Below, in pieces: positions 8,526 to 33,118 of a stretch of DNA of 34,468 bases (positions are counted from its first letter, which is position 1; every line of letters starts with the position of its first letter). The position numbers were made by a program, and so were the translations under genes. Source of the stretch: an uncultured Erysipelotrichaceae bacterium. GTDB lineage: Bacteria > Bacillota_I > Bacilli_A > RFN20 > CAG-826. The stretch covers positions 1 to 34,468 of the forward strand of contig CADBIO010000008.1 in the NCBI GenBank assembly GCA_902794835.1, written 5' to 3'. The notes under the pieces are model-generated. The model saw nothing but the letters and a program-made list of their open reading frames with translations. It was not told the origin of the DNA and did not search any database.

Positions 8526-11455
8526 CAGTCGTTGTCTCCGTCAAAATTTTCGTTTCCGTTGCCCAAAACGGAAGGATCATGAATCAAAACCTTCGAGCCT
8601 TTCGCATTCGATTGACTATCGGCTTTAGCGACGATTCCTTCGGCGATCAGTTGATTGAAGATTTTGCCAGCGCGTGGGAAACCAACACTATAAGTACGTT
8701 GGATTTTCGAAATCGAGGTATATTCTTGGGTCATGACATCCATCTTGATTTGCTCATAAAGATCGCCTTTGGCTTTCTCTTTAAGGGCTGCCCGTTCTAA
8801 TTTTTCGTTCTCTTCTGCTTCTTTCTCATCATTGGAATGATCGGTGAGATCGAGGAAACGAGGATCGTATTCGACAGTTTGCTGCTTCTTGATGAAATCC
8901 GTGATGGCTTCTAACTCTTCGTCTTGCACCAAACAGCCTTGGCAACGGACATCCCCGTTATGAGAGATTTGCTGGCAATCGACTAACATATCGCCATGTC
9001 CGTTTAATTCTTCCGCTCCCGCATGGCCTAAAATCGTCCCGGAGTCAACTTGCGAACTTACGCGCAAAGCGACACGAACATTCAAATTGGCCTTGATAAC
9101 GCCTGTAATGACGTTAACGGAAGGACGCTGGGTGGCAATGATTAAGTGAATACCGGCCGCGCGGGCTTTTTGAGCGAGACGTACAACGCTCTGACCGATG
9201 TTTTTGCAAGTGTCGGAAAGATCGGCGTATTCATCGATGAAGACAACGATAAAAGGAATTGGCTCGGCGCCTGCCTTGGGGCAATATTTTTCATTGTAGG
9301 CGCGGATATCGCGAACCCCAGCGAATTCAAACAGCATCAAACGGGCTTCCATCAAATCGATGAGTTTATCTAAGCAAACTTTGGCTTGGCTAGGTTCTTT
9401 GATGATTGGGCAAAGAAGGTGCGGAATATCGGCATATTTGACCATTTCAACACGTTTCGGATCCACCAAAACGAGTTTGAGATCTTCAGGACGATTACGC
9501 ATGATCAAGGAAGCCAATATGCCATGGGCGAAAATTGATTTACCTGAACCAGAGGTGCCGGCGATAAGCATATGAGGGAAAGCGGAAAGATCAGCGCAAA
9601 TCGGCTCGCCTGAGATGTTGATGCCAAAAGGAATCCACATATTCTTGTGTGGGTCATCAGGAAGGGATGCCACCATTTCTTTCAGGGAGACAATGGTCGA
9701 TTTCTCGTTGGCAATTTCCAACCCAGAAGTCGTTTTTCCGAGAATAACTTCTTCATAACGGGTGTGAACGCCGCCCAATTTAACGGACACGTCCTTCACG
9801 AATCGACCAATCGAGGCGACAGAAACGCCACGATCTGCCTGAATATCATAGCGGGTGACCGATGGGCCGACGGTATAGCTGACGACTTGGGCGCCGGCAT
9901 GAAGGTCGGCAAACGTTTCATTGATAATGTCGGCGCGATGTTGGCAATCCAGCTTGTTTTGCTCCTCCAATTGAGGGTCTTTTTTATAAGTTTGCAATAA
10001 ATCCAAAGGAGGGAATTGGTAGGCAGGGCGTTGTTTTGCCGGCATAACACCATGTTTTTCTTCCTCACTCATCTCGTGCTTAGGCTCTGGCATCGGTTCC
10101 GGTTTGAAGGTAGCGTCTGGGATGGCTGTATGAATTGGCTCTGGCTCTGGCTCGACATGCGGTTCTGGCTCGACATGCGGCTCTGGCTCGATATGCGGCT
10201 CTGGCTCAGCAAGAGAGAGACTTTCTTGTTCTTGCTCTTCATCTGAGGAATATTCCTCTTCTTCGAAAGACTCCTCTGAAACAAAGGATTCTTGGGGGGT
10301 TTCTTCTGTTTCTTCGCGTTTTTCTTCCTTGATGGATTCCTCAGAGGGTTGAGCCACTTCTTCCCAAGTCACTTCAGCGTCTTTCGTATCGACTTTTTCT
10401 GGCGTAGGCTCTGGTTTTTCTTCTCCAGGAAGAGGCAAAACGACCTCTCCGTAGGCAGGGGCTTTTTTCGGTGTTTCGAGGATGATTTCCTTTCTGTTTG
10501 AGGAAATGCCGCTTGGCGCAGAAGGAGAAGAAACAGGTTGAGAGAAGATGTCGTTGGCATTGGGGTCAAAGACAGCTTCTTGAAGACCGGCGTTGAATTC
10601 GGTTTCTGCCAAAACAGCCTCTCTTAGCGGTTCTACGGGAGCGATTTCTTGGGGGACAGGAGAGACTTCCTTCGGTCCTTCGGAATGGTAAAGGCTAGTT
10701 CTTGAAGCATTTTCCTCCACCGGCCCTTTTGGGGATTCTGGGCGGACTTCATAGGAAATTTGAGCCGCCGGGATTGGCTCATCTACCTCAATGGGCTGAT
10801 TGTCTTGGACATAGGCTTCCAAGGCGATGCGATTTTCTTCTTCTTGACGGCGGATTTCCTCGTCGCTCTGTTTTTTCGCACGGCTGGCGCCGACTTTGGA
10901 GGTAACTCCGTGAATCCCCCGCATGATCAACGGATAAAAAAGGAAGAAAAGACCGACTAGGATGACGAGAATGGCGATGGTCAAGGTCAAAGCCCGACCT
11001 GCCGCGTTGATGCCATAGGCGATTAGCGCATAAATAATCCCTCCGCCATCGCGGGCGTTGATAATTCCTTTCATTTCGGCGAAAGAAGCCAGAAGACCTG
11101 TGCTTTCTGTTCCATAAAGGTCATAAAGAGAGAGACCGTTGTCGGCATAAAAATTCGCGCTGCCAAAGCCGAAGATCAAGGAAACTCCGATCAAAACGAC
11201 GAAAATTCCAACAACGATTCTCCAGGTTAAGATTTTCTTGGCGTCTTTCCCTTTGACGAACAAAAGAACGCCGAAAACCAAGGCTAGCGGAAAGAAAGCC
11301 CAATAACCCAAAAGGCCGAACAGATAGACGAAAAGAAAGGCGATGCCCCACACATGATGGGTGAAGGGAGACAATAGGAAAAGCAGGGATAAGATTAAGA
11401 TTCCCGCACCTAAAGCGCGAATGATTTGATTGTTGGTATAGATTTTTTGCTGCAT
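8525..11455 (-). CDS. ftsK: FtsK/SpoIIIE-family DNA translocase
   Basis: A septum-anchored ATP-driven DNA pump that clears chromosome ends during division. With the ATG at 11455 it has 976 residues; a TTG at 11470 would add five residues but has no SD. Hydrophobic helices fill about residues 10-100 and 145-180 (four membrane spans). A long acidic Pro/Glu/Ser linker (about 195-465) follows. The motor domain carries Walker A AGTSGSGKS at 632-640, the VDPKRVEM segment and Walker B VVFIDEYADL. The last ~65 residues form the gamma winged-helix DNA-reading domain (SISKIQRTYSVGFPRAGKI). It follows rnjB by 21 bp, as in the B. subtilis rnjB-tepA-spoIIIE region, but tepA is missing. Confidence 0.95.
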   Translation of the reverse strand: MQQKIYTNNQIIRALGAGILILSLLFLLSPFTHHVWGIAFLFVYLFGLLGYWAFFPLALVFGVLLFVKGKDAKKILTWRIVVGIFVVLIGVSLIFGFGSANFYADNGLSLYDLYGTESTGLLASFAEMKGIINARDGGGIIYALIAYGINAAGRALTLTIAILVILVGLFFLFYPLIMRGIHGVTSKVGASRAKKQSDEEIRRQEEENRIALEAYVQDNQPIEVDEPIPAAQISYEVRPESPKGPVEENASRTSLYHSEGPKEVSPVPQEIAPVEPLREAVLAETEFNAGLQEAVFDPNANDIFSQPVSSPSAPSGISSNRKEIILETPKKAPAYGEVVLPLPGEEKPEPTPEKVDTKDAEVTWEEVAQPSEESIKEEKREETEETPQESFVSEESFEEEEYSSDEEQEQESLSLAEPEPHIEPEPHVEPEPHVEPEPEPIHTAIPDATFKPEPMPEPKHEMSEEEKHGVMPAKQRPAYQFPPLDLLQTYKKDPQLEEQNKLDCQHRADIINETFADLHAGAQVVSYTVGPSVTRYDIQADRGVSVASIGRFVKDVSVKLGGVHTRYEEVILGKTTSGLEIANEKSTIVSLKEMVASLPDDPHKNMWIPFGINISGEPICADLSAFPHMLIAGTSGSGKSIFAHGILASLIMRNRPEDLKLVLVDPKRVEMVKYADIPHLLCPIIKEPSQAKVCLDKLIDLMEARLMLFEFAGVRDIRAYNEKYCPKAGAEPIPFIVVFIDEYADLSDTCKNIGQSVVRLAQKARAAGIHLIIATQRPSVNVITGVIKANLNVRVALRVSSQVDSGTILGHAGAEELNGHGDMLVDCQQISHNGDVRCQGCLVQDEELEAITDFIKKQQTVEYDPRFLDLTDHSNDEKEAEENEKLERAALKEKAKGDLYEQIKMDVMTQEYTSISKIQRTYSVGFPRAGKIFNQLIAEGIVAKADSQSNAKGSKVLIHDPSVLGNGNENFDGDND
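10139..10207. repeat. 18-bp tandem repeat inside the ftsK linker
   Basis: Three full 18-bp units (10145-10162, 10163-10180, 10181-10198), differing at one or two positions, are flanked by partial copies. They encode a repeated six-residue unit EPEPHV/EPEPHI in the disordered linker. The unit length is a multiple of three, so copy-number change keeps the frame. Confidence 0.9.
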
Positions 11456-25001: not shown

Positions 25002-25367
25002 TTATTTCATGCCTTTTTTGGCTTCTTCCAATTCCGCTTCTTCTTTTTGGAGAAGGGCGTTCATATGTTCTTCTTCATCGAAACGGGTGTCATAGAAGAA
25101 TTGAATGTCTGGGACTTTGTAGAGATCCATTCGTTTGGCGAGCAAAGAACGGACGACCCCTTTGCAACGGTTTAATTCTTCCAAATTCTTTTGAGGATGC
25201 TTCGATCCAAGAAAGGAAACATAGACTTTCGCCAAGGAGTTATCGCCATTCAGTTCGACCAAATTCACCGATGGCATGCCGATTTTCGGATTCTTCAAAT
25301 CAAACATCAAGATATCGGAGATATTCCGTCCGATCAAGGCTTTGATTCTGCCAGAACGCTGGGCCAT
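25002..25367 (-). CDS. rbfA: Ribosome-binding factor A
   Basis: A 121-residue RbfA, the single-KH-fold factor for late 30S maturation and cold adaptation. Typical features are the start QRSGRIKALIGRNISDIL, the LAKVYVSFLG strand, the RSLLAKRMDLYKVPDIQFFYD segment and the acidic C-terminal tail. Its ATG shares a base with the infB TAA (TAATG). It is the last gene of the operon before the terminator. Confidence 0.95.
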   Translation of the reverse strand: MAQRSGRIKALIGRNISDILMFDLKNPKIGMPSVNLVELNGDNSLAKVYVSFLGSKHPQKNLEELNRCKGVVRSLLAKRMDLYKVPDIQFFYDTRFDEEEHMNALLQKEEAELEEAKKGMK

Positions 25368-27232
25368 TATTCTTTGACCACCATCTCGTATCCTTCGATG
25401 ATGTCTCCTTCTTTGATGTCGTTATAGCCATCAATGGTAAAACCGCATTCATAGCCTTCTTTGACTTCCTTGACGTCATCTTTGAATCGTTTCAAGGAAC
25501 CAAGTTTTCCTTCATAGACGATCACCCCAGCGCGAAGAAGACGAATCTTCTCCCCTGCCTTGATCAGGCCAGAGGTGACATAAGAACCAGCGACAGTCCC
25601 GACGTGGGTGATTTTATAAATATGGCGGATTTCGGCTTGGCCAGTCACATTTTCGACTTGCTCAGCCTTATACATACCCTTCATAAGATCGGTCATTTCA
25701 TCGATTAATTCATAAATGATTCGATGAGGGCGAATCTCAATGCCCGCTTCAGCGGCTTTTTGGGAAATTCTCGCATCTGGTCGGATGTTGAAACCATAAA
25801 TGATGGAGCCGGAAGCTTGGGCCAAAAGAATATCGTTGTCATTGATCGCCCCAGCTTGAGCGGCAACGACATGGACTTTGATTTGGTCGTTGGAAAGTTT
25901 TTCCAAGGAAGATTTGAGGGCTTCCGCCGAGCCATCCGTATCGGCTTTGACGATGACATTGATGTTTTGGATGGATCCAGAAGTGACCAGATTATTAAGA
26001 TCTTCCAAGGATCTTGCGGCAGTTCCCGCCTGTTCTTCGGCTTTTTTGGCTAAGGCTCTCTTTTCGGCGATTTCCTTGGCTTCCTTCTCACTAGGGAAGG
26101 ACATGAAACGGTCGCCGGCATTAGGCACGGCACTTAAGCCAATGACGGAAACCGGGGTCGATGGGCCGGCGGTTTTCACGATTTGGCCATATTCATTGGT
26201 CATGCGGCGGATTTTGCCATAGATTTCCCCGACAACGACATAATCGGAGGCATTTAAGGTCCCATTTTGCACCAAGAAGGTGGCTTTTGGTCCTTCGCCT
26301 TTATCGAGATTGGCTTCCAAAACCGTGCCAATCGCATAACGATTTGGGTTGGCTTTGAGTTCCATCATCTCCGCTTTTAAGAGGATTGTTTCCAATAAAT
26401 CGTCCAATCCTTGGCCAGTTTTCGCCGACACTTCCACCATCAAGACATCGCCACCATATTCTTCGGCGATGACGTTATGTTGCATCAATTCTTCTTTGAC
26501 GCGGCGCGGATCGGCGCCCGCTTTGTCCATTTTGTTGATCGCCACGATCATCTGGCAATTGGCAGCCTGAGCATGGTTGATGGCTTCGATTGTCTGTGGC
26601 ATGACGCCATCATCGGCCGCGACGACCAAAACGCAAATATCAGTCACATCGGCGCCACGGGCTCTCATGGCCGTGAAAGCGGCATGCCCTGGGGTGTCGA
26701 TGATGGTGATTTTCTTGCCGTGGACGTCTTTTTGATAAGCGCCGATGGCTTGGGAAATCCCCCCTGCCTCTCCGGCGGCCACATTGGTATGGCGGATGGC
26801 ATCGATAATGGAAGTTTTGCCGTGGTCGACATGTCCCATGACCGTCACGATGGGAGCGCGTTCCCGGAGATCTTTTGGATCGTCTTCGATTTCGAGCTCT
26901 TCAAAATGCTCGGCATCGACGATCTTCTCTTTCTTGAAATCGTAGCCATATTCCAGACAGATGGTTCCGATTGTTTCGTCATCGAGCATTTGGTTGATGG
27001 TGACCATTTGGCCATTCATGAACAAATATTTGATGATGGCGTTGACCGGGACGTTGATGGCTTTGGAAAGATCGGCGACGGAAAGAGGTTTCGAATAGAC
27101 GAAAACGCCCCCGTTGATCTTGGCAAATTCTTCTTTTTTCTTCTGATGAGGACGGGAATCGAAATTTGCCTGGCGGTTGCGGTTTGCCGCTTCTTTTTTG
27201 TCTTTGTTGGATACAAATTTATTCTTCTTCAT
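25367..27232 (-). CDS. infB: Translation initiation factor IF-2
   Basis: A 621-residue IF-2 that brings initiator tRNA to the 30S subunit and promotes subunit joining. The basic N-terminal part is short. It is followed by the IF2-N domain (about 45-95) and the GTPase domain with GHVDHGKT at 133-140, DTPGH at 179-183 and NKMD at 233-236. Domains II, III and IV (fMet-tRNA binding) follow to the end. It is shorter than B. subtilis IF-2 (about 716) only in the N-terminal region. The start has an AAGGGG SD inside ylxQ and overlaps its end by 14 bp. Confidence 0.97.
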
Positions 27233-27539
27233 GCTTTACCCCTTTCGTTGATTTCGTAACATAAGAGATGGCGGATTTTTTATCCGTGATCCCGATGAAG
27301 TTGATCTCCTCGTGGCCCAAGGCTTTTCCGAGCTCTTTGGCATTAAAGGAAATAGCGTCGGTTGGGATATGGCGGGAAGAGATCTTCTTTTGCCACATTT
27401 TGCTTTGCCCGGAGGAAAGATTATTGGCCATCACGATGAAATGGACTTTCTCAAGATGGCGGAATAGTTCGTCCCCAATCAAAGCGCGGTGAGAGGCATA
27501 TAGAATTCCCAAAAAGCCTAATCTTGCGTCTTGTTCCAT
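27219..27539 (-). CDS. ylxQ: YlxQ-like protein, L7Ae/L30e family
   Basis: A 106-residue protein whose position between nusA and infB and fold cues (LGILYASHRALIGDELFRHL, HFIVMANNLSSGQSKMW, HIPTDAISFNAKELGKALG) match YlxQ, an L7Ae-type RNA-binding protein that recognises kink-turns. The usual glycine-rich first helix is altered, so similarity is moderate. The SD is AAGGAGAGG. In most Firmicutes ylxR lies just upstream, but here there is only a 105-bp spacer. Confidence 0.75.
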   Translation of the reverse strand: MEQDARLGFLGILYASHRALIGDELFRHLEKVHFIVMANNLSSGQSKMWQKKISSRHIPTDAISFNAKELGKALGHEEINFIGITDKKSAISYVTKSTKGVKHEEE

Positions 27540-27644: not shown

Positions 27645-29429
27645 TTATTCGTCGTAATATTCGTCGAAATCTTCGTAATCGACGGAATCGTCTTCCATCT
27701 GGTTGGCGGCGTTTTCTTCTTCTTCGATTTCCGCGAGCTCTTCGTCAGAATAGATTGGCATCGCTTCTTGGACAGAAGGAACTTCGGTTGGGGCAACGCG
27801 AGCCACTTCCGTTTCGGAAATGTTGTGCGGACGTTTGCTCTTGCCGCCTTTTTTGCCTTTCTTGTCGTCTTTCTTCTCGGAAGATTTGGCCAATTCTTGC
27901 TCAAGTTCTTCGAGCGTCTTGGTCGTCTTGACCGCGGTCTTTTCGACGATTGGCTCTGGCTTATCTTCCACCACAGGGGAAGAAACAGGAGTCTCTTCTT
28001 CTATTGCCGGGGTCTCCTCTGGGGCGATAGGCTCGGCAACTGGGGTCTCCTCCAATTCGACTTCTTCTTCGTCGATTTCTGGAAGGACAGGAGCCGCCGG
28101 GGCGATAGGCTCAGCGGTTTTGCTTGCCATCTCGGCGGCAGAACGTTTGGCATATTCTTCTCTGGATTTGGCTTTCTTGAGTTCTTCCGCCTCTTTTTGG
28201 AGTTCGTCGAATGGCACATAATCGATGCCTTCGGCTTCCGCATCGCTCTTCTTATAAACGCGGATGTTCCAGCCGGTGAGTTTGTTGGCTAAGGAAGCAT
28301 TGGATCCCCGTTTTCCGATGGCAGCGGCATATTGTTCATCTTCGATGACCACGGCTGCGGTTGGGTGAGGTTGAGAATTCTCATCGATGATCTTGACCCC
28401 CAAAACATCGACAGGGCGCAAAGATTCGGCGAGATATAATGGGAGGAAATCCGAATAAGGGATGATATCGATCTTCTCTTTGTATTTAGAATTGCCAAGC
28501 TGAGCGACGATCTTTTGGATACGGGTTCCGCCTGGGCCAATGCAAGCGCCGATGGGATCGACGTTTTCATCATTGGAAGTGACGGCGACTTTAGAACGGA
28601 TGCCAGCGCGACGGGCGATGCCTTTGATTAAGACGGTGCCATCGAAAATTTCATGGATTTCTTCTTCAAAGAGTCTCTTCAAGAAACCCTCCGAAGAACG
28701 GGTGGCTTTGATCTGCGGCCCTTTTGGCGAACGACCACTTTCATCTTTTGGCTGTTGGACTTCTTCGATGTAGATCTTGATCGGCTCACCGAGTTTGAAT
28801 TCTTCTTCGCCGATTAAATCTTCGCGATAAAGATCCGTCGTGCCTTTGCCGATATTGACGGTGACAGTCGAGCCAGAGACCGCTTCGACGGTTCCAGTGA
28901 CAAGTTCCCCGATGTGGTCTTTGTAGATTTCATAAAGGACTTCGTGACCTGCTTCGGCGATTTTTTGTTTCAAAGTCGTTCTAATGCCAGCGACGGCAAG
29001 CTTAGAAAGAGTTGCGAATGGGCAATAAACGCGATAATCTTTGCCAACTCGGATGTTCTCTTTCTCCACTTCGATCAATTTGATGAGATATTTGAGGTCC
29101 TCTTTCTTGCGGGCTTCATTGCGTTTAAGATAAGCGATTTCCTCTTTGCTTTCCGCGATTAAGGCATCGGCATTGGCTTTGGCATCTTCCACGCTGATTT
29201 GAAGATAATCATCTTCGACTTCTTCGACAACTTCTTTGAGTTGGGCGATGGTGACGTGGCCTCCGACTTCGTCGATGACAACTTCGACACGGGCGTCATT
29301 TCCGCCTTTCAAATAGCGGATATAGGCGACTTCTAAGGCATCATGCAAGGCGTTGATGACGGCTTGGTGAGAGACACCTTTGGTTTCGGCGATCAGGTTG
29401 ATCGCGTTTTGGAATTCAGTGACATCCAT
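27645..29429 (-). CDS. nusA: Transcription termination/antitermination factor NusA with long acidic tail
   Basis: A 594-residue NusA, an RNA polymerase-associated pausing and termination factor. The N-terminal domain is residues 1-160, S1 about 173-225, KH1 about 235-310 (CIGPGGTRIQ) and KH2 about 355-392 (AIGKRGSNASLANKLTGW). B. subtilis NusA stops soon after KH2 (371 residues), whereas here about 190 low-complexity acidic and Lys residues follow, ending DYEDFDEYYDE. Compared with the usual N-terminal domain there is an extra charged stretch of roughly 35 residues near 85-128, and the FGRIAAQTAKQV motif is changed to FATLSKLAVAGIRTTL. It follows rimP by 17 bp with a GAGGAAA SD. Confidence 0.95.
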   Translation of the reverse strand: MDVTEFQNAINLIAETKGVSHQAVINALHDALEVAYIRYLKGGNDARVEVVIDEVGGHVTIAQLKEVVEEVEDDYLQISVEDAKANADALIAESKEEIAYLKRNEARKKEDLKYLIKLIEVEKENIRVGKDYRVYCPFATLSKLAVAGIRTTLKQKIAEAGHEVLYEIYKDHIGELVTGTVEAVSGSTVTVNIGKGTTDLYREDLIGEEEFKLGEPIKIYIEEVQQPKDESGRSPKGPQIKATRSSEGFLKRLFEEEIHEIFDGTVLIKGIARRAGIRSKVAVTSNDENVDPIGACIGPGGTRIQKIVAQLGNSKYKEKIDIIPYSDFLPLYLAESLRPVDVLGVKIIDENSQPHPTAAVVIEDEQYAAAIGKRGSNASLANKLTGWNIRVYKKSDAEAEGIDYVPFDELQKEAEELKKAKSREEYAKRSAAEMASKTAEPIAPAAPVLPEIDEEEVELEETPVAEPIAPEETPAIEEETPVSSPVVEDKPEPIVEKTAVKTTKTLEELEQELAKSSEKKDDKKGKKGGKSKRPHNISETEVARVAPTEVPSVQEAMPIYSDEELAEIEEEENAANQMEDDSVDYEDFDEYYDE

Positions 29430-29446: not shown

Positions 29447-29908
29447 TTAGAATTTGATTGCCAAGCGGGCTTTGTCGATAGCATCGCGCTTGAGACGGAT
29501 TGTTTTTTTCCTGGCTTTGATTTTGATGCCAAGAGCGACTTCTTCTTCATTCACTTCCAGAAGGTCCCCTTCTAAGGTGTTTTCTCCTTCGAAGGGATGA
29601 GAGAGATGAAGATTCACGTATTTTCCGACATAATGCGGAAGTTTCTCCAATTTGAGGGGTTTTTCCAGCCCCAGCGAGGAGACATCCAAGACATAAGGGC
29701 CATCGACAGGGTCTTCTTGGTCTAGGATTGGGTTGATAATGTCGCTTACGCGGACGATATCGTCTAGGGAGATTGGCTCATCTCGGTCAACGAAGATATG
29801 CAACGTAAGCCCATCTTTATCACGGGTCAGGGTGACCTCTGCTAGCTCAAAGCCCTCCTTTTCCAAGACGGGCGTGAGTAGCGATTTCACCGCTTCAGTT
29901 TCTTTCAT
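29447..29908 (-). CDS. rimP: Ribosome maturation factor RimP
   Basis: A 153-residue RimP needed for early 30S assembly. Typical features are the PVLEKEGFELAEVTLTRD start, the DRDEPISLDDIVRVSDIINPILD helix-strand region, PYVLDVSSLGLEKPL and the C-terminal SH3-like domain with the ending KARLAIKF. Two adjacent ATGs exist; the one at 29908 has the better AGGAGG spacing (6 nt) and the one at 29911 would add one Met. The frame's earlier start at 29953 lies inside the leader hairpins and is rejected. It is the first gene of rimP-nusA-ylxQ-infB-rbfA. Confidence 0.95.
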   Translation of the reverse strand: MKETEAVKSLLTPVLEKEGFELAEVTLTRDKDGLTLHIFVDRDEPISLDDIVRVSDIINPILDQEDPVDGPYVLDVSSLGLEKPLKLEKLPHYVGKYVNLHLSHPFEGENTLEGDLLEVNEEEVALGIKIKARKKTIRLKRDAIDKARLAIKF

Positions 29909-29923
29909 CATTTTCCTCCTAAG

Positions 29924-29999
29924 AAAACAAAAGAGTGGGTCCGTAGACACCACTCAAGAAATGTTGAGCGCTGGTGGAGCCTCGACGAGGATCTTCCAC
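29924..29999 (-). promoter_or_regulatory. Leader attenuator upstream of rimP-nusA-infB
   Basis: Read on the minus strand, three helices can form in order. The first is GTGGA...TCCAC with an inner CCTC/GAGG (29974-29999). The second is CACC/GGTG plus CTCAA/TTGAG (29948-29957 with 29964-29976). The third is GAGTGG/CCACTC (29950-29955 with 29933-29938) followed by TTTTGTTTT, an intrinsic terminator ending just before the rimP SD. Neighbouring helices share bases and exclude one another, which is the layout of terminator/antiterminator control. Confidence 0.6.
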
Positions 30000-30006
30000 G
30001 TGAGTG

Positions 30007-30035
30007 ATTATCACGCATACGCGAGGAAAATGCAA
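30007..30035 (-). promoter_or_regulatory. Promoter of the rimP-nusA-infB operon
   Basis: Minus-strand TTGCAT (30030-30035), a 17-bp spacer and GATAAT (30007-30012). The predicted start near 30000 places the three-helix leader at the very 5' end of the mRNA. Confidence 0.65.
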
Positions 30036-31060: not shown

Positions 31061-33118
31061 TTAGAAATATATGGTGTCTTTGCTAATCGTTAATGTCGGT
31101 GAACCCTCATGAAGTGCGATCACTTCGATGATGCGGCTATCTCCATGAGCAGAGTCAAGAGAAAAGGCCACAATTTCGGCGGTGGCAAAACCGTCCTGGG
31201 AGAGAAATAAATCGCTTTCGGAAAGAATTTCCCCGCCTTCGTTTTGATATGCCCTCACGACATAGGTTCCATTCCCTTCGGCATAACCGTTTTGGGCAAA
31301 TTCATAAGTTAGGCTGGTGTAATAGATGCCTGCCGCCGCCCCAGTTTCGCTGGTCTCATATTCTTTCAATTTGATATAAGGCGTGATCGTTCCTTCGGGA
31401 TTTAGGCTGAAAGTCTTGTGATCAAGGGGATAATCTCCTGTTTTCTCCGGTTTTTCGATTCTGATCCAGACACTATATTCCGTTGAGGGAGACATCGTCC
31501 CATAGAACGTCTTTTCATAAGAAAATGCATAGCGGTTCTCTTGCTCGGAAACTAAGGTTGCATTTTCAGGACCGCATTTGATTTCGTCACTTTCTAAAAC
31601 GGCATCCAAAGAAGAACCGTCACAAAGAAGAATCCCCGCCAAGCCATAAGAAGAAGGCTCGCTTTCCTCATAAGAAAATTCCAGCTCAAAGGAAACGGTG
31701 AGAGCTAAACGGTTATCGTCTTTTGCTAAAGCCAACGGCTCGCTTAATCTAGCGTGGAAACTAGCAAGGGTTGAAACGTTATATTCCGAGGTGAAATAAA
31801 TCTTCCCGTAATCTTTGTCTTTCACTCGGAAGGCGTAGCCCTCGAAATCATAATTCCCTTGATAAAAACAATTGATTTCCGTGTGGTAATAGCCATTTTC
31901 ATCAGGATTCATGTCAAGAGGATCGGCGATGATTTCCTGCTCATCGATCAAAAACTCATTCCCTTGAGGATCAACGAGATAATGAGCGAGGTTCCCGGAA
32001 TCAAGGAAAGAAAGATCGTATCGGAATTCTAAACTCATCGAATCTTCTTCCCCAGTCCATGAACAATTCTCAATTCGGTAATCATCAAGGAAGACAAGAC
32101 TGTTTTGCGAATAAACAATCTCTTTTCCATTCGGACCAAAATGGTAGAAATCAAATCGATAGCTCTCGTTGAAATCGAATGATAATCCGTCTTCTCTCCC
32201 GAAACTCCCTGTAACGATGTCGCCATAAAGATATAAGGAATCATTAGAATCACCAGGCATTTGCCCATGGTCAAGGCGTTTGTCCTCGCTTTCTTCCAAA
32301 AGGAACTCCTGGGTGGCGAGAAGGGTTCCCGCCTCTGTCGACAATTCACAATAAAGGGTCCCCTTTTTGTTGTAGCCGATGTTAGCGCCATATTCGATGG
32401 TCTCAGCTCGATCATTCGCATTGATGGAGACTTCCCCTCCTAAAATCCCGGCGAAAAAGCCATCCCCCATCTCTATCGTGGCCGAATAGAGGGACTTTCG
32501 TTGTCCATTTTTCCAATAATAAAGGTCAAAATAGTAAGTAGCATCGAAGGTTAGTCCCAAATCTCCCTGCTCATTAAAAACGCCTTCTAAAGAATAAAGA
32601 TAAGGATAATCCGCTTTCTTTTCTTCGGAAGGGGCGTTTTGGTTCTCACTTTCTCCTTCGGAAGAAGAAAGCTCATATTCCCTTAAAGAAAGGACGGTCG
32701 TCCCGTCGCTTAATTCGACGAAGACGGTGCCGTCCATGTTATATTCCAGAGTGCCAAAATAGGAGATGCTTGTTTCTTTGATGTTCACATAGGTTCCGAA
32801 ATGCCCCTCAGAGATTTTTGGGGCAAAAGTGAGAGCCAAAGTGGCAATCGCTGTCTCTACCGCCCCGATGGCCACAGCGCCCACCACCGCGCCGGCAGCC
32901 AAGGTGGTTGTCGTAGTCGCCACGAGATTCCCCGAAGTGATTTTGGAGGGAGTTTGCTCCGATGCCAAAGAAAAGGGTTCATTGGGCGGATTTTCTGAGG
33001 AGTGGCTGAGATTTTTTGCTTCGGGAGTCCCCGATTTTGCCGTGGAGCCACCGAAATCATTGATCTCTTGGCCAACGTCATTCAGTTCGTTGTACTCTTC
33101 GTTGCGATTGAGCATCAT
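31061..33118 (-). CDS. Unknown membrane-anchored surface protein with duplicated beta-rich domain
   Basis: 685 residues; I do not recognise a named family. Residues 1-65 are hydrophilic and Ser/Asn/Pro-rich. Residues about 66-100 form an Ala/Thr/Val-rich hydrophobic segment, probably a signal-anchor, with the rest outside. Residues about 117-236 and 239-358 are a tandem duplication: YNMDGTVFVELSDG pairs with YNKKGTLYCELSTE, and GLTFDATYYFDLYYW with GLSFDFNESYRFDFYHF. Further beta-strand-rich, possibly Ig/Fn3-like modules fill 360-685. The composition is acidic (many Glu, Asp, Tyr, Ser). There is no sorting motif or catalytic signature. The start at 33118 has an AGGA SD (a second ATG is adjacent). 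Confidence 0.7.
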   Translation of the reverse strand: MMLNRNEEYNELNDVGQEINDFGGSTAKSGTPEAKNLSHSSENPPNEPFSLASEQTPSKITSGNLVATTTTTLAAGAVVGAVAIGAVETAIATLALTFAPKISEGHFGTYVNIKETSISYFGTLEYNMDGTVFVELSDGTTVLSLREYELSSSEGESENQNAPSEEKKADYPYLYSLEGVFNEQGDLGLTFDATYYFDLYYWKNGQRKSLYSATIEMGDGFFAGILGGEVSINANDRAETIEYGANIGYNKKGTLYCELSTEAGTLLATQEFLLEESEDKRLDHGQMPGDSNDSLYLYGDIVTGSFGREDGLSFDFNESYRFDFYHFGPNGKEIVYSQNSLVFLDDYRIENCSWTGEEDSMSLEFRYDLSFLDSGNLAHYLVDPQGNEFLIDEQEIIADPLDMNPDENGYYHTEINCFYQGNYDFEGYAFRVKDKDYGKIYFTSEYNVSTLASFHARLSEPLALAKDDNRLALTVSFELEFSYEESEPSSYGLAGILLCDGSSLDAVLESDEIKCGPENATLVSEQENRYAFSYEKTFYGTMSPSTEYSVWIRIEKPEKTGDYPLDHKTFSLNPEGTITPYIKLKEYETSETGAAAGIYYTSLTYEFAQNGYAEGNGTYVVRAYQNEGGEILSESDLFLSQDGFATAEIVAFSLDSAHGDSRIIEVIALHEGSPTLTISKDTIYF

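Follow-up and report, generated by a model that had tools for sequence, protein, structure and literature searches.

A candidate transcription attenuator with an antiterminator hairpin upstream of the rimP-nusA-infB operon of an uncultured Erysipelotrichaceae bacterium

The rimP-nusA-infB operon of an uncultured gut bacterium is preceded by a leader which we read, with a probability of about 0.6, as a transcription attenuator in which an antiterminator hairpin (P2) and a terminator hairpin (P3) would race behind a hairpin at the 5' end (P1), NusA being the likeliest feedback effector. That the leader has three hairpins, that they are conserved and that P2 and P3 exclude each other was demonstrated computationally. 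Positions are those of the window, i.e. the whole stretch of 34,468 nucleotides that was analysed, and energies were computed on a 92-nt transcript unless otherwise indicated.

Location, promoter and operon

The leader (ca. 90 nt) is read on the minus strand upstream of rimP, and precedes rimP-nusA-(ylxQ-like)-infB-rbfA. A preliminary description of this DNA had given the operon order as rimP-nusA-ylxQ-infB-rbfA, and Pfam agrees with it, ylxQ by way of a sub-threshold L7Ae match. The elements and genes, with their evidence, are:

30030-30035, minus strand, -35-like element TTGCAT (sequence; weak, 3/6, the sole -35 candidate)
30007-30012, minus strand, -10 element GATAAT (sequence; 5/6, 17 bp from TTGCAT)
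29915-29920, minus strand, Shine-Dalgarno AGGAGG (sequence)
29447-29911, minus strand, rimP (ATG at 29911-29909; Pfam RimP_N and DUF150_C)
27645-29429, minus strand, nusA with NTD, S1 and KH domains (Pfam NusA_N and KH_5; PDB NusA matches)
27219-27539, minus strand, ylxQ-like, L7Ae fold family (PF01248 E 0.042, below cut-off; operon position)
25367-27232, minus strand, infB (Pfam IF-2)
25002-25367, minus strand, rbfA (Pfam RBFA 1.2e-26)

The promoter had been called good, which is too generous for a -35 element of this quality, and a consensus promoter scan reported none for the leader. We infer a transcription start at about 30000, with the three hairpins within the next 67 nt; in relatives P1 begins most often 6 nt past the -10 hexamer, which places it at the start site. 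A transcript that starts at P1 leaves no room for the Shine-Dalgarno of a leader peptide, and attenuation through ribosome stalling is hardly credible here: a GTG-initiated frame does span the window leader, but SD-like strings are rare inside the leaders of relatives, and inspection of those leaders by eye shows no prominent start codon or frame.

Hairpins and energetics

The RNA elements of the leader, with the analyses that bear on each, are:

29974-29999, minus strand, P1, hairpin at the predicted 5' end, GUGGA-AGAU-CCUC-GUC-GAGG-C-UCCAC (covariation, energy, family-wide hairpin test)
29948-29973, minus strand, P2, antiterminator hairpin, core CGCUCAA/UUGAGUG (energy, shuffle tests, three-way covariation with P3)
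29933-29955, minus strand, P3, terminator hairpin GAGUGG-u-GUC-UACG-GAC-CCACUC (energy; conserved class-wide)
29921-29932, minus strand, interrupted U-tract UUUUGUUUUCUU, followed by the Shine-Dalgarno (sequence)

The predicted energies are -9.0 kcal/mol for P1, -10.7 for P2 and -12.8 for P3 (-11.6 alone). The sequence agrees with the preliminary description in its succession of a promoter region, three helices and an intrinsic terminator right before the Shine-Dalgarno, its T-run interrupted (TTTTGTTTTCTT). The terminator stem, put there at a modest 6 bp, has 6+3 bp and a UACG loop. That each helix overlaps the next holds for P2 and P3, which are mutually exclusive and have strand 29948-29955 in common, but not for P1 and P2, which are compatible: P1 ends at 29974 and the best P2 starts at 29973. 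Because these two do not overlap, the leader offers one switch, P1+P2 (read-through, -19.7 kcal/mol) versus P1+P3 (termination, -21.8 kcal/mol), instead of a chain of three helices. The chain, in which all three would be mutually exclusive and P1 an anti-antiterminator, is very unlikely. An alternative P2 in the window (CACCA/UGGUG) does overlap P1, but this form reaches only -9.3 kcal/mol and costs P1, as against -19.7 for P1 and P2 together, and relatives typically have P1 and P2 next to each other, 1-3 nt apart.

In stepwise folding P1 appeared first and P1+P2 when some 48-56 nt had emerged, followed by a related P2-containing fold at 60-64 nt and by P1+P3 from about 68 nt. The fold z of the isolated leader sequence (transcribed strand) is a modest -1.64, and what points beyond chance is the comparative evidence (pairing, covariation and shuffle tests) rather than this value. 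Some of the predicted folds retain P2, and in them the released 3' arm of P3 and the U-tract (CUCUU) pair with the Shine-Dalgarno (AGGAG) within 29936-29915; this pairing may couple attenuation to translation or may have arisen by chance from SD composition.

Conservation within the genus

The genus sample comprised 30 rimP loci, read from 37 genomes. A structure-blind MAFFT alignment of 16 trimmed genus leaders recovered P1 and P3, with 9 pairs varying on both sides. The covariation analysis proposed in the preliminary description finds conserved pairing: 94.5% of the cells of the named P1+P3 structure are paired, with 29 cells of two-sided change against 10.7 in shuffles and a covariation score of 0.387 against 0.222. 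Slid versions of the structure are far lower (36-54% paired). P2 was assessed by linker shuffling, which gave a Fisher p of ~4e-6 for 17 genus leaders, near-identical ones removed. The fixed-window test for P1 was weak in the genus, and P1 was retested upstream of P2, with P2 as the anchor, in place of the fixed window. P2 itself is weak in several leaders (G004, G002 and G009) and across much of g18, the sister genus. One leader (L020, genome G035) has an 11-bp P1 whose 3' end, CCCC, doubles as the 5' arm of P2, and there P1 and P2 compete.

Distribution across the family, order and class

The wider set, drawn from the family, order and class, comprised 143 distinct rimP leaders of class Bacilli, near-identical ones removed, and includes MAGs of uncultured Bacilli, Bacillales and Erysipelotrichaceae, many from rumen or gut. 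P3 is found class-wide, commonly as (A)AGAGUGG(G)..(C)CCACUCU. For P2 the genus gave a Fisher p of 8.6e-4, the rest of the family (a group that includes named loci, and in which a few of the 77 may fall outside family f1) 2.1e-17, and families f3 and f5 4.7e-6; these leaders are related and non-independent, so that such combined values overstate. The upstream-of-P2 test for P1 gave 3.5e-4, 1.9e-18 and 1.2e-7 for the same three groups. P2 was not significant in families f2, f4, f6, f7 and f8 (0.42) or in the other families of the class (0.067), nor was P1 in the five other families of the order (0.95) or elsewhere in the class (0.073). P1 and P2 are significant only in the window's own family and two others of its order, and the contrast with families that lack them, under the same procedure, makes a stronger argument than the combined p values. 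A GNRA-capped P1 occurs in 29/109 leaders versus 0/34, and P1 and P2 stand together in the pre-terminator fold in 84 of the 109, where 40.6 were expected.

In sister families that lack P1 and P2 (f4 and f8; L224, L226, L234 and L235) the terminator hairpin starts only ~4-5 nt past the predicted start. The median distance from the -10 hexamer is 10 nt, and a hairpin so near the start implies terminated RNAs of ~30 nt. The window leader would exemplify a minimal terminator just past the start site elaborated into a switch within one order. A divergent rimP leader is present in genus g26 and similar (L160-L167, L093-L096); its terminator is GAUGCC..GGCAUC, its T-run is long, and in some cases an AUCAUU..AAUGAU hairpin lies upstream.

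Compensation in the shared strand

The strand common to P2 and P3 changes together with both of its partners. At its second core base, A occurs with U in P2 and U in P3 (68 leaders) and G with C and C (4); at the fourth, U occurs with A/A (48) or G/A (19), C with G/G (6) and A with U/U (1). Since these partners were drawn from predicted folds, the shuffle tests serve as the control. The three-way changes suggest that P2-P3 complementarity is preserved, and together with the shuffle tests in relatives they bear out the view, taken in the preliminary description, of an attenuator with an antiterminator helix.

They also weigh against a constitutive partial terminator that sets the level of the operon unregulated, with P1 and P2 serving RNA stability or a fixed read-through. 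This is rather unlikely, even though P3 generally out-competes P2 and no effector has been demonstrated, given that complementarity kept through such changes is joined by the autoregulation of nusA by termination in B. subtilis, as a review has it (PMC12288461). The margin of P3 over P2 is ~2 kcal/mol in the window and ~5-7 in most relatives; with P3 usually clearly the more stable, P2 may only tune termination efficiency.

Proposed mechanism

On the attenuator reading transcription would start at ~30000 and P1 would fold at once at the 5' end. P2 would form second and sequester the 5' arm of the terminator, until the 3' arm of P3 emerges and P3 can displace P2. If P3 has formed while the polymerase is on the interrupted U-tract, transcription would stop before rimP; otherwise the operon would be read. 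Because P2 makes termination a race, a slower polymerase, or help for P3, would raise termination. NusA, encoded by the second gene, would promote termination and so exert negative feedback. It comes first among the candidates since its gene lies in the operon, it acts on weak terminators by stimulating them and, in B. subtilis, it is autoregulated by attenuation. The preliminary description had mentioned that autoregulation, and a review states that in B. subtilis NusA controls nusA by stimulating termination in the nusA leader (PMC12288461, citing Mondal 2016). We infer kinetic control, with NusA as the effector; by analogy with B. subtilis, NusA feedback on the window leader is plausible. 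The ACUC-like sequence in the 5' arm of P2 was considered as a target of the NusA KH domains and set aside, being only a resemblance, and one confounded by pairing.

The U-tract

Distal U-tract interruptions are known at NusA- and NusG-dependent terminators (PMC8060035). In having a suboptimal hairpin and/or an interruption of the U-tract, the window terminator resembles those that depend on NusA. Tail position 4 is U in 37% of rimP leaders versus 76% of control T-tailed hairpins (p 9e-14), the control set having been compiled mechanically and including chance hairpins; the break in the window lies at position 5, not 4. Class-wide, rimP leaders have a single conserved non-U near position 4 (e.g. 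29932-29921 of the window; UUUNUUUU).

TTNTTT occurs in the U-tract of 69/142 rimP leaders versus 42/218 controls. In favour of the attenuator reading, the host NusG has the NT dipeptide known from pausing of the B. subtilis type. A NusG pause at TTNTTT was rejected as support for termination, the published spacing being such that polymerase would be held past the release point.

The 5' hairpin

Most of the family has a plain hairpin as P1, frequently with a GNRA cap, and a conserved bulge is found in only two genera. One of them is the sister genus, g18, where the bulge AUC is nearly invariant and the pair beside it covaries (A-U 12, U-A 3, G-C 2); the window's own genus, g1, conserves a related bulge, AGAY. 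Such a bulge could be a recognition site. That P1 is a sensor in these two genera, binding either a small molecule or a protein (RimP, IF2, RbfA or a ribosomal protein) and thereby biasing the choice between P2 and P3, is unlikely. The nearly fixed AUC beside a covarying pair and the retention of AGAY speak for a sensor, and against it stand the plain P1 of the remaining family and the occurrence of the motif once in the host genome, so that no second target is seen. A kink-turn (the YlxQ/L7Ae target, a three-nt bulge and then tandem G-A pairs) was also looked for in P1 by inspection and dismissed, as P1 has no tandem G-A. No simple coupling of P1 to P2 is visible either, because the two do not overlap.

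The extra sensor suggested in the preliminary description is therefore not borne out, P1 being a compatible neighbour of P2 and a plain hairpin in most relatives. More doubtful still is the specific proposal that the AU(C) bulge is the receptor for an operon-encoded translation or ribosome-assembly factor or another ligand; were it true, an effector other than NusA would control rimP-nusA-infB, and these Bacilli would hold a previously undescribed class of leader RNA. In the attenuator, the probable role of P1 is to protect or insulate the 5' end, not to switch.

Relation to known leaders

Rfam 15 gave no covariance-model match at gathering in the window. The search of the leader that had been suggested found no relevant family up to E 10 (best sbrA, 17 bits versus a cut-off of 45), and 17 relatives gave nothing relevant (asX2, 36.8 of 70, in L010). 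Our model R1 has one copy in the host genome; a regulon was considered and rejected, the R1 matches away from rimP (L055, L056, L058-L066, L068 and L071) resembling ordinary terminators.

The rimP-leader of Naville and Gautheret (2010; PMC2965389) heads a list of the genes for which regulation by attenuation is predicted most frequently, and its sequence is conserved across Firmicutes. For its general Firmicute form the authors report neither a larger conserved element nor a visible antiterminator. The window leader shares its position upstream of rimP-nusA-infB and its build, an intrinsic terminator with a G-rich 5' arm, a C-rich 3' arm and a T-stretch just before the gene, and P3 is the known rimP-leader site. 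It differs in adding the conserved antiterminator P2 and the 5' hairpin P1, and in a stem core of GUGG..CCAC (GAGUGG..CCACUC) rather than GGGc..gCCC; GUGGG..CCCAC stems are found in many other Bacilli. In Gammaproteobacteria the leader has a different build, in which tandem terminators are combined with an antiterminator (PMC2965389). With the B. subtilis nusA leader the window leader has in common an attenuation proposed before a NusA-encoding operon, a weak terminator and an interrupted U-tract.

We regard the window leader as a lineage-specific elaboration of the rimP attenuator, most probably a kinetic switch that NusA-stimulated termination would read as feedback. This lineage supplies an antiterminator with a defined competing strand, and the NusA-feedback model can therefore be tested by mutants of single helices. 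In three-hairpin attenuators of the trp/his type antiterminator and terminator compete for one strand, as P2 and P3 do; the window leader is unlike them in having no leader peptide and a P1 that does not compete with P2.

Elsewhere in the window, positions 31061-33118 encode a 685-aa protein with no Pfam match at E 1 and an N-terminal hydrophobic stretch, and positions 10143-10207 hold a tandem repeat of 3.6 copies of an 18-bp unit.
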